Shown here one piece after another: positions 8,434 through 25,636 of a stretch of DNA of 27,524 nt (position 1 is its first letter; each line of letters begins with the position of its first letter). The notes below the pieces were generated by a model. That model searched no databases, had not been told where the DNA came from, and saw nothing but the letters and a program-made list of their open reading frames with translations. The stretch is from a virus. Location: positions 1 through 27,524 of IMG/VR virus record IMGVR_UViG_3300006904_000020, one strand, 5' to 3'. Position numbers and translations under genes: made by a program.

Positions 8434-9141
8434 TCATACAAACGGATTCTTAAAGTGACTGGGGTCGAATATCGCCTGCGCTCTGCCGCCGCCACTCGGT
8501 AAATCATTCCACCTCTGTTGAGTGGTCGCCGCCACTTTGCGCTTTTCCTGCTTCACTAGCCTATCAAGTAAGGTGCTGTAGATGCCGCGCTGCTCTTTGG
8601 CCCGGTCAAGCATTCCGTCAAGCTCGTACAGCCCGGCTTTCACATAGCAGCGCACCAGTGGTAAATACTGGTCTTGAATCGGTATCGTCGCCGACGTGGC
8701 TATCTCGGACGGGTAATAGAAGAATGTGCGCTCTATCGTCAGAACCGAATTAGGAACGGGCGCAAGCCGGAACTGATAGAGGGTATTTGAACCGGAGACT
8801 AAAACCCCATCTTCAATCCAGACGCGCGCCCTACCTGAGTCTTCCAGTTTCGCCATATAGCGCGCCGCTTCCTGCGTTCCCCATAGCCAGATAGGTTCCC
8901 CGGTGTCGGTGTAACGCAGTTGTTCTATCTCGCGTCCACCAACGGGAAGTTGGTAGATGGCGGTTCCGGCCACGGTTGAGAAAGTGGAGCGAGTACGGAA
9001 CATGTTGTAATTCGTGGCAACAGCAATCTCATCAAGCGCGTCGTTAATGCGCTTCTCAACCCTCTGGACAAAGCCAGCGTCATCCGTGGCCTTCTCCATT
9101 GATTGCAGGATTGCGGTTGCTTCTGAATTGGGCGTTGCCAT
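8434..9141 (-). CDS. Head-tail adaptor, T7 gp11/P22 gp4-like (235 aa)
   Basis: The N-terminal half is helical (KRINDALDEIAVATNYNMF). A strand-rich part follows with YQLPVGGREIEQL, and a C-terminal helix holds LYELDGMLDRAKEQR. This layout matches the tail-tubular-protein-A/gp4-type adaptors that bind the portal ring and carry the nozzle. It sits immediately before the nozzle gene. Its SD (GAGGAGA) touches the right arm of a short hairpin (9150-9172), so access to the start may depend on that hairpin. The tail end of the protein is Gly/Arg-rich and may be flexible. Confidence 0.75.
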   Translation of the reverse strand: MATPNSEATAILQSMEKATDDAGFVQRVEKRINDALDEIAVATNYNMFRTRSTFSTVAGTAIYQLPVGGREIEQLRYTDTGEPIWLWGTQEAARYMAKLEDSGRARVWIEDGVLVSGSNTLYQFRLAPVPNSVLTIERTFFYYPSEIATSATIPIQDQYLPLVRCYVKAGLYELDGMLDRAKEQRGIYSTLLDRLVKQEKRKVAATTQQRWNDLPSGGGRAQAIFDPSHFKNPFV

Positions 9142-9163
9142 CTACTCTCCTCGGGTCTATAAT
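9135..9163 (+). promoter_or_regulatory. Candidate plus-strand sigma70-like promoter
   Basis: On the plus strand, TTGCCA at 9135-9140 is separated by 17 bases from a perfect TATAAT at 9158-9163. It points away from the direction of all genes. The -10 box lies inside the loop of a 7-bp dyad (9150-9172). Transcription would begin near 9170 and run into the strong hairpin at 9208-9242. A chance match is possible; no protein-coding gene follows. Confidence 0.4.
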
Positions 9164-9172
9164 TCACCCGAG
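9150..9172. promoter_or_regulatory. 7-bp inverted repeat upstream of the adaptor gene
   Basis: CTCGGGT and ACCCGAG flank a 9-base centre. In minus-strand RNA the right arm abuts the adaptor gene's GAGGAGA ribosome site. In DNA the dyad encloses the candidate plus-strand -10 box. It could be an operator, an RNA hairpin that tunes adaptor translation, or both. Confidence 0.45.
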
Positions 9173-9207
9173 CGGAGATGGTCGCCGCTTCCTTTCTTTT
9201 GAGGATG

Positions 9208-9242
9208 CACCCGGGCCTGTACTCGAATTACAGGCCCGGGTG
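9208..9242. other. Strong intergenic hairpin, 14-bp stem and 7-base loop
   Basis: A perfect 14-bp stem (CACCCGGGCCTGTA and its complement) surrounds the loop CTCGAAT in the gap between head and tail genes. Neither strand has a T-run after it, so it is not a canonical terminator. It may act as a pause, a processing site or a 3'-end stabiliser, or as the end of a short plus-strand RNA started at about 9170. Confidence 0.65.
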
Positions 9243-9256
9243 TTCGGCTGTTAGGC

Positions 9257-9442
9257 TTAGTGTTTCCTTCTGCGCCCAGCCGCTGCCATTGACGCCATTT
9301 TCTTCGCGCCGTATTTAGCCCGGCCCGCGCTGGCCATTATCGCGTCGGCGCTTGCTTTACTAAGCCCTTCGCGCTTCTGAATAGCTTTGGAACCGGCAGC
9401 AAAGCGGCCCCCGCCGCCAAGCTTCATGCTTTTCTTAGCCAT
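9257..9442 (-). CDS. Small basic Gly/Ala-rich protein (61 aa)
   Basis: The protein is strongly basic (KKSMKLGGGGRF at the start, AAAGRRRKH at the end), with a helical middle including SADAIMASAGRAKYGAKKM. Short proteins with a GGGGRF start are common among phage head genes next to coat and adaptor genes. They are probably virion components or DNA-contacting peptides, but no function is established to my knowledge. The ATG lies two bases after the previous stop, with GAGG eight bases upstream. The strong hairpin at 9208-9242 follows it. Confidence 0.6.
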   Translation of the reverse strand: MAKKSMKLGGGGRFAAGSKAIQKREGLSKASADAIMASAGRAKYGAKKMASMAAAGRRRKH

Positions 9443-10172: not shown

Positions 10173-10193
10173 GAATATTCTCCTTGTGAGAGA

Positions 10194-10213
10194 GGGGCCG
10201 AATTAACGGCCCC
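10194..10213. other. GC-rich hairpin after the decoration gene
   Basis: GGGGCCG and CGGCCCC form a perfect 7-bp stem with a 6-base loop, directly downstream (minus direction) of the decoration-protein stop. The minus strand continues TCTCTCAC, not a real U-tract. It may lower expression of the genes that follow relative to the coat genes, or protect the 3' end of the coat message. Confidence 0.5.
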
Positions 10214-10220
10214 CATGTGT

Positions 10221-18761: not shown

Positions 18762-18790
18762 ATATTGCATAAACAACACGGATGAGTCAA
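18762..18790 (-). promoter_or_regulatory. Candidate promoter of the first Cro-like gene
   Basis: On the minus strand, TTGACT (18790-18785) and CAATAT (18767-18762) are 17 bases apart. The -10 match is weak (three of six). The expected start of transcription falls on or within a base or two of the ATG at 18755. The -35 box lies in TGACTCA, a short palindrome, and related TGACT words recur at 18814 and 18862. Confidence 0.35.
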
Positions 18791-18921
18791 ATAGATACAG
18801 GAGATGTGTCGGAATGACTTGCGGGATAGGGTAGGGAATTGGTAGGATGGCGGCAGGTTAAGTGACTCTACTGTATTTCGTTTCTTTGAACCTCCATTTG
18901 GATAGGGCTAAGTGCTTCTGT

Positions 18922-18953
18922 GGCCCGGCAGTTTGTTGCTGCCGGGCCTTTTT
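18922..18953 (+). terminator. Rho-independent terminator, plus-strand orientation
   Basis: GGCCCGGCAG and CTGCCGGGCC form a perfect 10-bp stem with loop TTTGTTG, followed on the plus strand by five T. On the minus strand the hairpin is preceded by A and followed by ACAGAAGC, so it is not canonical for the genes here. It implies a plus-strand transcript ending in this gap, or else it acts only as a hairpin. The gap 18756-18993 holds no convincing gene on either strand. Confidence 0.7.
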
Positions 18954-18993
18954 GTTCACCACGCGCCGCGCCGTGGCGACTACGCGGCGGGGG

Positions 18994-24222: not shown

Positions 24223-24640
24223 AGTCTTCGCGCTCCAATTCGATAAGTTGAGTGGCGCTAATGTAGCCCGCTGTCAGCCGGGTTTCGTCGCCACATTCCA
24301 CGCATTTAGCCCGCCTGAGTATCTCAAACCCCGTTCGCGTTTTACGCCCAACTTTCCGCTTTCCGGATGGGTTTACGGCGTGCAGTTCCGGGGCCGGAAC
24401 CAGCCCCTTGCCGAGTCGTTTCCACGTCCGGATGTCGCTATTGATAAGCGATAGCTGCGAAACGACTTCGGGTGAATTTTTAGTACTAAAACCTGTATCC
24501 GGAACCAGCCTAAAAACCGGGCGCTCTTTAGTACTAAAAGCCTCCGCCGATTTAGGGGCTTGCGTTGGCTCCGGATTTAGTGTTTTATGTTCCGGCTTGG
24601 GGGCAGCGATAATAGCCTCCGGGGTTTGGACTTCCGCCAC
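24083..24640 (-). CDS. Zinc-ribbon protein with FSTK repeats (185 aa)
   Basis: The N-terminal 100 residues are Pro/Lys-rich and probably disordered, with two FSTK repeats (AFSTKERPVF and GFSTKNSPEV) and two LVP phrases. The C-terminal half has Cys113-x2-Cys116 (KCVECGDE) and Cys167-x2-Cys170 (LRCAGC), a split zinc ribbon. It begins with GTG two bases after the membrane-protein stop, inside a hairpin (24629-24657), so translation is probably by reinitiation. Function unknown. Confidence 0.55.
   Translation of the reverse strand: MAEVQTPEAIIAAPKPEHKTLNPEPTQAPKSAEAFSTKERPVFRLVPDTGFSTKNSPEVVSQLSLINSDIRTWKRLGKGLVPAPELHAVNPSGKRKVGRKTRTGFEILRRAKCVECGDETRLTAGYISATQLIELEREDYETKVGIIRNILRKKQRDIDGRLHDLRCAGCESGRKSRSLHIAEAS
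24478..24538. repeat. Two copies of the palindrome TTTAGTACTAAA inside the zinc-ribbon gene
   Basis: TTTTAGTACTAAAA (24478-24491) and TTTAGTACTAAA (24527-24538) are 48 bases apart, centre to centre. They encode FSTK both times. A second repeat, CCGGAACCAGCC, occurs at 24394-24405 and 24499-24510. They could be protein-binding sites or just an internal duplication of the gene. Confidence 0.6.
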
Positions 24641-24657
24641 TTCTACTGGCGGAAGTC
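24629..24657 (-). promoter_or_regulatory. Stop-start hairpin between membrane and zinc-ribbon genes
   Basis: GACTTCCGCCA and TGGCGGAAGTC form a perfect 11-bp stem with a 7-base loop. In the minus-strand RNA the TAG stop of the membrane protein lies in the loop, and the GTG start of the next gene straddles loop and stem. A ribosome finishing the first gene would open it, so the second gene is probably coupled. Confidence 0.6.
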
Positions 24658-25263
24658 TTTTCCCACCGACTGCTCTAACCTGCCCGTCGCCGGGACTTCA
24701 TGCACGGTATCGAAATACTCTTCCTTCTTTGCCGGTTGTCGGACTTCCATGCTCTGCTTCTTCAGTCGACGTGACGATAGGGCGAATATCATTAGCGAAC
24801 TGGCCAGTTCAAGAAACGCCAGAATTGCGACAATAACCGCCACGCCGTCGCTGAACGCGAGCTCTAACCTTGACGAACTCTCAGCGCCGAGTCTCAATTC
24901 CCTTGCAATCCGTCGGCTTGTGGCCTTCCCTGCTTCCGCCATCCCTTTTTCGTACTTTTCCACCTGAGCGGCGTTGTAGCCTTCAATCCCGATGTTGCGC
25001 GCCCCGTTGTGGACGAGATACCCGGCGTTCAGCGCCACGCACAGATACAGCCAGCATTTCATTAGAGTCTCGCCGGGGACATCTTTAGCGAACAGGTAAC
25101 AGGACGCGAACCCGGCAACGGTGGCTGACGCTGCTACCCATAGGCCGAGTCTCACGCCGTATACTTGAACCCCCGCGTAGCCGATGGCCCCGATGATAAC
25201 CAGGTGAATAAGTGTCCATATCAGCCAGTCGAAAATACTTCTTTCGTCGTTTTGGTTTTGCAT
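24643..25263 (-). CDS. Four-helix membrane protein (206 aa)
   Basis: Probable membrane helices: residues 12-32 (WLIWTLIHLVIIGAIGYAG), 38-59, 69-86 (CWLYLCVALNAGYL) and 138-163 (VAVIVAILAFLELASSLMIF). Between the third and fourth lies a charged helix of about 50 residues, and a charged, soluble tail follows. The ATG has AAGGGGAG upstream within a structured leader. I recognise no family. Membrane proteins in such an early position may affect host physiology or exclude other phages; this is speculation. Confidence 0.65.
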   Translation of the reverse strand: MQNQNDERSIFDWLIWTLIHLVIIGAIGYAGVQVYGVRLGLWVAASATVAGFASCYLFAKDVPGETLMKCWLYLCVALNAGYLVHNGARNIGIEGYNAAQVEKYEKGMAEAGKATSRRIARELRLGAESSSRLELAFSDGVAVIVAILAFLELASSLMIFALSSRRLKKQSMEVRQPAKKEEYFDTVHEVPATGRLEQSVGKDFRQ

Positions 25264-25342
25264 GTGTCTCCCCTTCCCTATTTTGGGAAGACACGGTTAA
25301 ATGTTGGCGCAGTCCGAAGACTGCCGCCGTCAACCGTGTCTT
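25264..25342 (-). promoter_or_regulatory. Structured 5' leader with alternative pairings
   Basis: In the minus-strand RNA, AAGACACGGTT (25342-25332) pairs over 11 bp with AACCGTGTCTT (25298-25288), enclosing a smaller GCAGTC/GACTGC hairpin with a CGAA loop. GTGTCTTCCC from the second arm can instead pair with GGGAAG and AGACAC (25279-25264), which lie on and beside the ribosome site of the membrane-protein gene. The two folds exclude each other. The arrangement is that of a riboswitch-like or attenuator leader; no ligand is identified. Confidence 0.5.
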
Positions 25343-25365
25343 AAACTGTTCGGTTGATGTGTGAA

Positions 25366-25396
25366 CCCTAGTCCTCGCTTTCGACGAGGACTAGGG
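25366..25396. other. Intergenic hairpin, 12-bp stem and 7-base loop
   Basis: CCCTAGTCCTCG and CGAGGACTAGGG form a perfect stem around CTTTCGA, six bases beyond the stop of the 77-aa gene. Neither strand has a T-run after it. It separates the upstream gene from the structured leader, and may be a processing or pause site. Confidence 0.6.
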
Positions 25397-25402
25397 CGCT
25401 CG

Positions 25403-25636
25403 TTATAGTTCGTCGGGCCATTCTTCGCGCTCATCTGCCAACCTGCGCACGCCACGCATTACGCGCGAGTTGGTGTCGTAGGCGTCGCGGTAGAGAACCT
25501 GAAGCCAGGCGCGCGCCCTCTCAATAGCTGCGTCCCTATCGTCGCCGTCCAGAATAGAGAACAGGTGTTCAAACGCCGTTATCCGCATGAACGTTTCCCG
25601 GCCTTCACTGTCGCTCAAATCCATCGGCCTAGCCAT
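25403..25636 (-). CDS. Small helical acidic protein (77 aa)
   Basis: This helical, Asp/Glu/Arg-rich protein contains RITAFEHLFSILDGDDRDAA and a C-terminal RRLADEREEWPDEL. The ATG overlaps the previous stop by one base (TAATG), with GGAGGAAACTACGC upstream at some distance. It is the last gene of a tightly packed set before a hairpin. Function unknown. Confidence 0.55.
   Translation of the reverse strand: MARPMDLSDSEGRETFMRITAFEHLFSILDGDDRDAAIERARAWLQVLYRDAYDTNSRVMRGVRRLADEREEWPDEL

Follow-up and report, generated by a model that had tools for sequence, protein, structure and literature searches.

A phage leader RNA, conserved in a sister phage, with two balanced and mutually exclusive predicted folds, one of which hides the Shine-Dalgarno region of a membrane-protein gene

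Leaders of the ermC-type attenuator consist of four segments: pairing of the first with the second and of the third with the fourth gives the OFF state, pairing of the second with the third gives the ON state, and the Shine-Dalgarno (SD) sequence lies in the last segment. Translational riboswitches likewise place an anti-SD and an anti-anti-SD in their expression platform and couple it to an aptamer. In the type I toxin mRNA aapA3 of Helicobacter pylori, the SD of the growing transcript is masked by metastable hairpins, which later give way to a long-distance fold (eLife 2019, PMC6733600). The 5' UTR of MS2 is a named example of metastable structure (PMC6733600). Bistable leaders of DNA phages with evidence from a relative are rarely documented.

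The DNA analysed here (the window) is a virus record of 27,524 bases, in which the genes for terminase, portal, and major head protein all lie on the minus strand. A 139-nt gap (25264-25402) between a gene for a 77-aa protein and the gene for a 206-aa membrane protein is the site of the leader (Table 1). With a mean pLDDT of 51, the predicted structure of this protein was too poor for a fold search, and relatives of its gene were found neither in two scans of bacterial genomes nor among the plasmids scanned. For comparison, a colinear sister phage of 39 kb (L002) with a terminase of 90% identity was available.

The first-pass annotation had described three complementary words before the ATG, an inner hairpin with CGAA, and a further 12-bp hairpin upstream. 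All of them are there. The loop of the inner hairpin reads UUCG on the mRNA strand and CGAA on the plus strand, and the arms of the upstream hairpin (H1) are at 25396-25385 and 25377-25366. On the minus-strand mRNA, word 2 (GUGUCUUCCC) forms 11 bp with word 1 or 10 bp with word 3, which contains the SD and lies immediately before the ATG at 25263. A further segment, word 0, had been overlooked; while word 2 is engaged by word 3, it pairs with CGGTTGA (25336-25330) of word 1. The two states are 0:1 together with 2:3, in which the SD is hidden (OFF), versus 1:2, in which the SD is free (ON). The 1:2 hairpin has stems of 11 and 9 bp with a 3/7-nt internal loop between them.

Table 1 Features of the leader, of the gene behind it, and of related loci
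Feature	Position	Strand	Remark
Gene of the 206-aa membrane protein	24643..25263	-	Presumably controlled gene; matches no known family, helical in a low-confidence model
Upstream hairpin H1, 12-13 bp, no U-tract	25366..25396	-	Common to both folds
Word 0 (UCAACCG; DNA TCAACCG)	25351..25357	-	Pairs with word 1 when OFF, as seen in the minimum-energy fold
Word 1, full (AAGACACGGUUGA)	25330..25342	-	Partner is word 0 or word 2
Word 1, 11-bp arm (AAGACACGGTT)	25342-25332	-	Pairs with word 2
Inner hairpin GGCG(G)CAGUC-UUCG-GACUGCGCC	25306..25328	-	Common to both folds
Word 2, full (AACCGUGUCUUCCC)	25285..25298	-	Partner is word 1 (ON) or word 3 (OFF)
Word 2, 11-bp arm (AACCGTGTCTT)	25298-25288	-	33 nt separate the two arms
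Word 3 (GGGGAGACAC), SD region	25264..25273	-	Hidden in the OFF fold
Slippery heptamer G_GGA_AAA, zero frame, 22 nt before the stop	24658..24664	-	Conserved in L002
Stem-loop behind the heptamer	24629..24657	-	11-bp arms 24657-24647 and 24639-24629
Putative -1 frame extension, 193 codons	24083..24664	-	Runs into the next ORF
Putative -1 extension, L002	3603-4139
Putative -1 extension, L039	3347-3961
Putative -1 extension, L040	5495-6469
Putative -1 extension, L043	7314-7733	-
Putative -1 extension, L044	2169-3143	-
Putative -1 extension, L045			Tail
Putative -1 extension, L080
Putative -1 extension, L081	2925-3270
184-nt structured leader of the 225-aa gene, L080	1250..1066	-
184-nt structured leader of the 225-aa gene, L081	2073-2256
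184-nt structured leader of the 225-aa gene, L082	1199..1015

With the ermC-type attenuator, the leader has in common the four alternatively pairing segments and the position of the SD in the last of them. That attenuator has a leader peptide, whereas the phage leader has none in either the window or L002, so stalling cannot be the trigger. A ribosome-stalling attenuator was excluded because, in both phages, the segment from the stop codon of the preceding gene (25403-25405) to word 1 is free of ATG, GTG, and TTG. The sole ORF running through the leader has its TTG start within word 1, is only 10 codons long in L002, and was rejected as a leader peptide.

The structure exceeds chance expectation. 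The 146-nt leader folds with -67.8 kcal/mol against a mean of -36.2 for shuffled sequences (z = -8.7), and z is about -5 for the 106-nt core without the upstream hairpin. A middle word engaged in two helices (at least 10 bp in the window, at least 9 bp in L002) was obtained in 0 of 1000 dinucleotide shuffles of each sequence. Among 562 ORF starts (ORFs of at least 120 aa across all loci compared), only two, the start behind the leader in the window and its counterpart in L002, have this arrangement with helices of 9 bp or longer and a third arm that covers the SD. Opening the SD region of the leader's gene costs 15.5 kcal/mol, the second highest value among the 43 gene starts in the window.

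We folded the minus-strand RNA thermodynamically, and neither fold dominates. The mutually exclusive folds proposed in the first-pass annotation are thus borne out, with balanced energies in two phages and the SD hidden or freed. With the respective helix enforced on the core plus 17 nt of coding sequence, the constrained ensembles have -41.47 (ON, 1:2) and -41.43 kcal/mol (OFF, 2:3) in the window and -39.69 (ON) and -40.12 kcal/mol (OFF) in L002; these are equilibrium estimates, and their error is of the same order as the ON-OFF difference. Under four parameter sets (Turner 2004, Turner 1999, Andronescu, and Langdon), the difference ranges from 0.34 to -1.49 kcal/mol over the two phages. When the folded segment is extended by the upstream hairpin or by a further 60 nt of coding sequence, it lies between -2.2 and +1.9 kcal/mol. 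Because of this dependence on flanks and parameters, near balance can be stated and absolute populations cannot. On the opposite strand, the equivalent of 1:2 dominates with a probability of 0.93-0.97; hence, the balance is a property of the mRNA strand. Between 15 and 50 °C, the probability of 2:3 rises from 0.04 to 0.45 in the window and changes little in L002 (from 0.72 to 0.54). As no opening trend is common to the two phages in this range, an RNA thermometer was rejected.

Covariation was searched for in related phages, and compensatory changes are present in L002. Its leader is 83% identical to that of the window over 134 aligned columns; fourfold sites of the two phages are 63% identical. 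Three pairs carry double compensatory changes, all in the two hairpins common to both folds, where no pair is broken: U-A to C-G and C-G to U-A in H1, and A-U to U-A in the inner hairpin, whose loop changes from UUCG to AGAA. When the 23 substitutions were placed randomly, at least three doubled pairs and no singly changed pair occurred in 14 of 200,000 trials, with complementarity not yet required. This is good evidence that the leader is a conserved structured RNA. As the compensatory changes are confined to the common hairpins, they demonstrate structured RNA and do not by themselves prove switching.

The competing words are identical at 37 of 42 positions, versus 63% identity at fourfold sites. 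Helix 1:2 keeps 9 of its 11 pairs in L002 (two terminal pairs are broken), and helix 0:1 keeps six of seven, with one terminal pair broken. Helix 2:3 shows two one-sided consistent changes, and its register survives a 2-nt deletion (AC), the AU of the start codon taking over two pairs. No double compensatory change occurs in the competing helices, for which L002 is the one leader-bearing relative. The conservation of the exclusivity itself is therefore suggestive, coming from a single relative. At the leader, homology begins at the stop codon of the upstream gene, and the upstream genes are unrelated. Hence, the leader belongs to the downstream gene and travels with it.

A sigma-70 promoter was not found by consensus on the minus strand at the leader. 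The hexamer TATAAC at 25407-25402 (-) opens the conserved unit in the window and in L002 (near 2863), and occurs also in the leaders of L080-L082; L002 and L080-L082 have GCTTATAACC in common. It may serve as a weak lead for a -10 promoter element, without a clear -35; if it were used, the transcript start would fall at the upstream hairpin. H1 did not score as an intrinsic terminator; it is possibly a 5' stem-loop that resembles a terminator or protects the mRNA.

To date, the two-fold switch is known from the window and L002 only. Leader DNA was not found in annotated phages. Pattern scans of IMG/VR returned 32 and 22 stretches, of which only L002 was real; the others were repeats arising by chance or coding sequence with no relation to the leader. 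Five sister phages identified through their capsid protein gave no match to the leader, a negative result of little weight. More distant homologues of the membrane protein (L039, 58% identity; L043 and L045, 59%; L040, 52%; L044/L046, 47%) lack the leader. Their genes lie directly behind another gene (L043-L046) or behind an integrase (L039 and L040), and in L039 the SD is in a hairpin of CUCCC with GGGAG. In three sister phages (L080-L082), an unrelated 225-aa membrane protein occupies the slot of the window's gene. Its own structured leader (z -4.85 in L081) holds the SD in a simple hairpin (GUUCCCUU/AAGGGGAC). Hence, SD-hiding before a membrane protein seems to recur in this slot with different sequences. 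The same leader also has an 11-bp hairpin (CCGCUCUGCAC/GUGCAGAGCGG).

We read the leader as a two-state translational switch of the phage membrane-protein mRNA and put the probability of this reading at roughly 60%. The pairings, their balance, and their conservation in one sister phage are observed, and from them we infer that translation follows the fold. In the OFF state, word 0 would pair with word 1 and word 2 with word 3, hiding the SD. In the ON state, words 1 and 2 would form the long hairpin capped by the inner hairpin, leaving word 3 free. As the two folds are nearly equal in energy, a factor that binds or disturbs word 0, 1, or 2, or a ribosome at the free SD, could tip the balance. 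As trigger, a metabolite is less likely than a protein, than an antisense RNA, or than folding kinetics during transcription.

Folding of the growing chain, calculated as the equilibrium at each length and not as a kinetic simulation, passes from 0:1 to 1:2 on completion of word 2 and ends with 0:1 plus 2:3 on completion of word 3. This order suggests an early ON window. During transcription, 0:1 would thus form first, 1:2 would replace it once word 2 is made and leave the SD briefly accessible, and 2:3 would become possible once word 3 has emerged. Successive alternative hairpins that gate the SD during transcription are also the principle of aapA3 and hok; there, the early fold hides the SD, whereas in the phage leader the early fold is predicted to expose it and neither fold has an energetic advantage. 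The leader of the MS2 maturation gene is a phage leader in which the folding order may likewise open a brief translation window, but MS2 is an RNA phage and the fold differs.

The main rival is a plain hairpin in which 2:3 hides the SD, 1:2 is a by-product, and expression is weak or depends on melting, with no regulated switching. The strongly hidden SD region of the gene fits such a hairpin, as do the simple SD hairpins of the L080-L082 slot gene and of L039. As word 1 is not part of 2:3, however, this hairpin would put no constraint on it; nevertheless, the 9 bp by which it complements word 2 are unchanged in L002. Word 0 is likewise conserved, and the two folds remain balanced. We regard the plain hairpin as unlikely. 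Processing by RNase III, with cleavage and not refolding setting expression, is less probable still. RNase III sites are known from the early mRNA of T7 and the N leader of lambda, and the 1:2 hairpin, with its two stems and asymmetric internal loop just 5' of the SD, would suit the enzyme. A cut in the internal loop would nevertheless let word 2 pair with word 3, and neither word 0 nor the preserved balance would be explained.

The first-pass annotation had spoken of a riboswitch or a translational attenuator. An attenuator-like switch agrees with the data; a riboswitch is unsupported because there is no Rfam match and no conserved unpaired aptamer-like core. The exclusive pairing does resemble the expression platform of a translational riboswitch. 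A search of the window, L002, and L081 against Rfam 15 gave no match at the gathering score and nothing relevant at a permissive threshold (E up to 5). The tetraloop is not conserved, and the 3' strand of the internal loop differs in length between the two phages. A metabolite riboswitch is thus highly improbable. An equally small chance is left for the words being operator half-sites or other DNA elements with incidental RNA pairing. Words 1 and 2 do form a perfect 11-bp inverted repeat, which such an element might have, but the compensatory changes alter the sequence in the two common hairpins, G-U pairs work on the mRNA strand only, the third word touches the SD, and the repeat has no other copy in the window.

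The 3' end of the same gene carries a -1 frameshift signal of textbook form. The gene ends with GTG GGA AAA GAC TTC CGC CAG TAG, in which G_GGA_AAA in the zero frame is followed by a 5-nt spacer and a stem-loop. An in-frame X_XXY_YYZ, a spacer within 5-9 nt, a downstream structure, and an open -1 frame are all present. The window has only 9 such in-frame heptamers in 8962 codons. The -1 frame enters the next ORF, which lacks an SD and whose start at 24640 is the most deeply hidden of the 43 (19.2 kcal/mol). In L002, G_GGA_AAA again stands 22 nt before the stop, the upper pair of the stem-loop changes from A-U to G-C in a compensatory manner, and around the junction the -1 frame is devoid of the usual start codons. 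C_CCA_AAA is found 13-25 nt before the stop in L039, L040, L043, L044, and L045; a stem-loop follows it in each of the four folded (L039, L040, L043, and L044) and is weakest in L039. Altogether, the in-frame heptamer precedes the stop in 7/7 loci of the membrane-protein family and in the unrelated slot gene of L080/L081, where G_GGA_AAA is 10 nt from the stop; the -1 frames stay open over long distances. Judged from sequence, the simplest account is a programmed -1 frameshift, conserved among these loci, that would yield the membrane protein and a longer fusion.

In the window, the 193-codon extension is probably fused to the membrane protein in this way. The extensions comprise at least 121 codons in the loci where they are readable, are homologous within subgroups only, and share no common Pfam domain. 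In MW202444, each of the two parts is annotated as a hypothetical protein of its own. In the excerpts of PMC5009743, PMC10885494, and PMC3711429 that deal with phage frameshift genes, this kind of membrane protein is not mentioned. A more far-reaching proposal, which we hold tentatively and consider rather doubtful, is a new class of phage translational switch with a near-zero energy difference and neither a leader peptide nor a ligand core, after which the ribosomes of the gene would frameshift and add a large, variable C-terminal domain. If this were true, RNA structure would govern how translation of one early phage gene initiates and also which product it gives.

Several extensions contain short repeated motifs (NVGK / STGK), encoded by DNA such as GCCAACGTTGGCAAA with a palindrome, at L002:3690-3760, at L039:3460-3620, and in the extension of L080. 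They look like coding palindromic repeats.

Other gaps in the window are also structured. A second strongly structured leader (9142-9256, -) precedes the gene 8434-9141, which has the third highest opening energy; the leader contains a 14-bp hairpin (CACCCGGGCCTGTA) and also an SD-hiding hairpin. The sister phage lacks this segment together with ORF 9257-9442. In the gaps 10173-10220 and 18780-18993 (-), there are strong GC-rich hairpins with no U-tract, for example GGCCCGGCAG/CTGCCGGGCC, which are possibly non-canonical terminators or processing sites.
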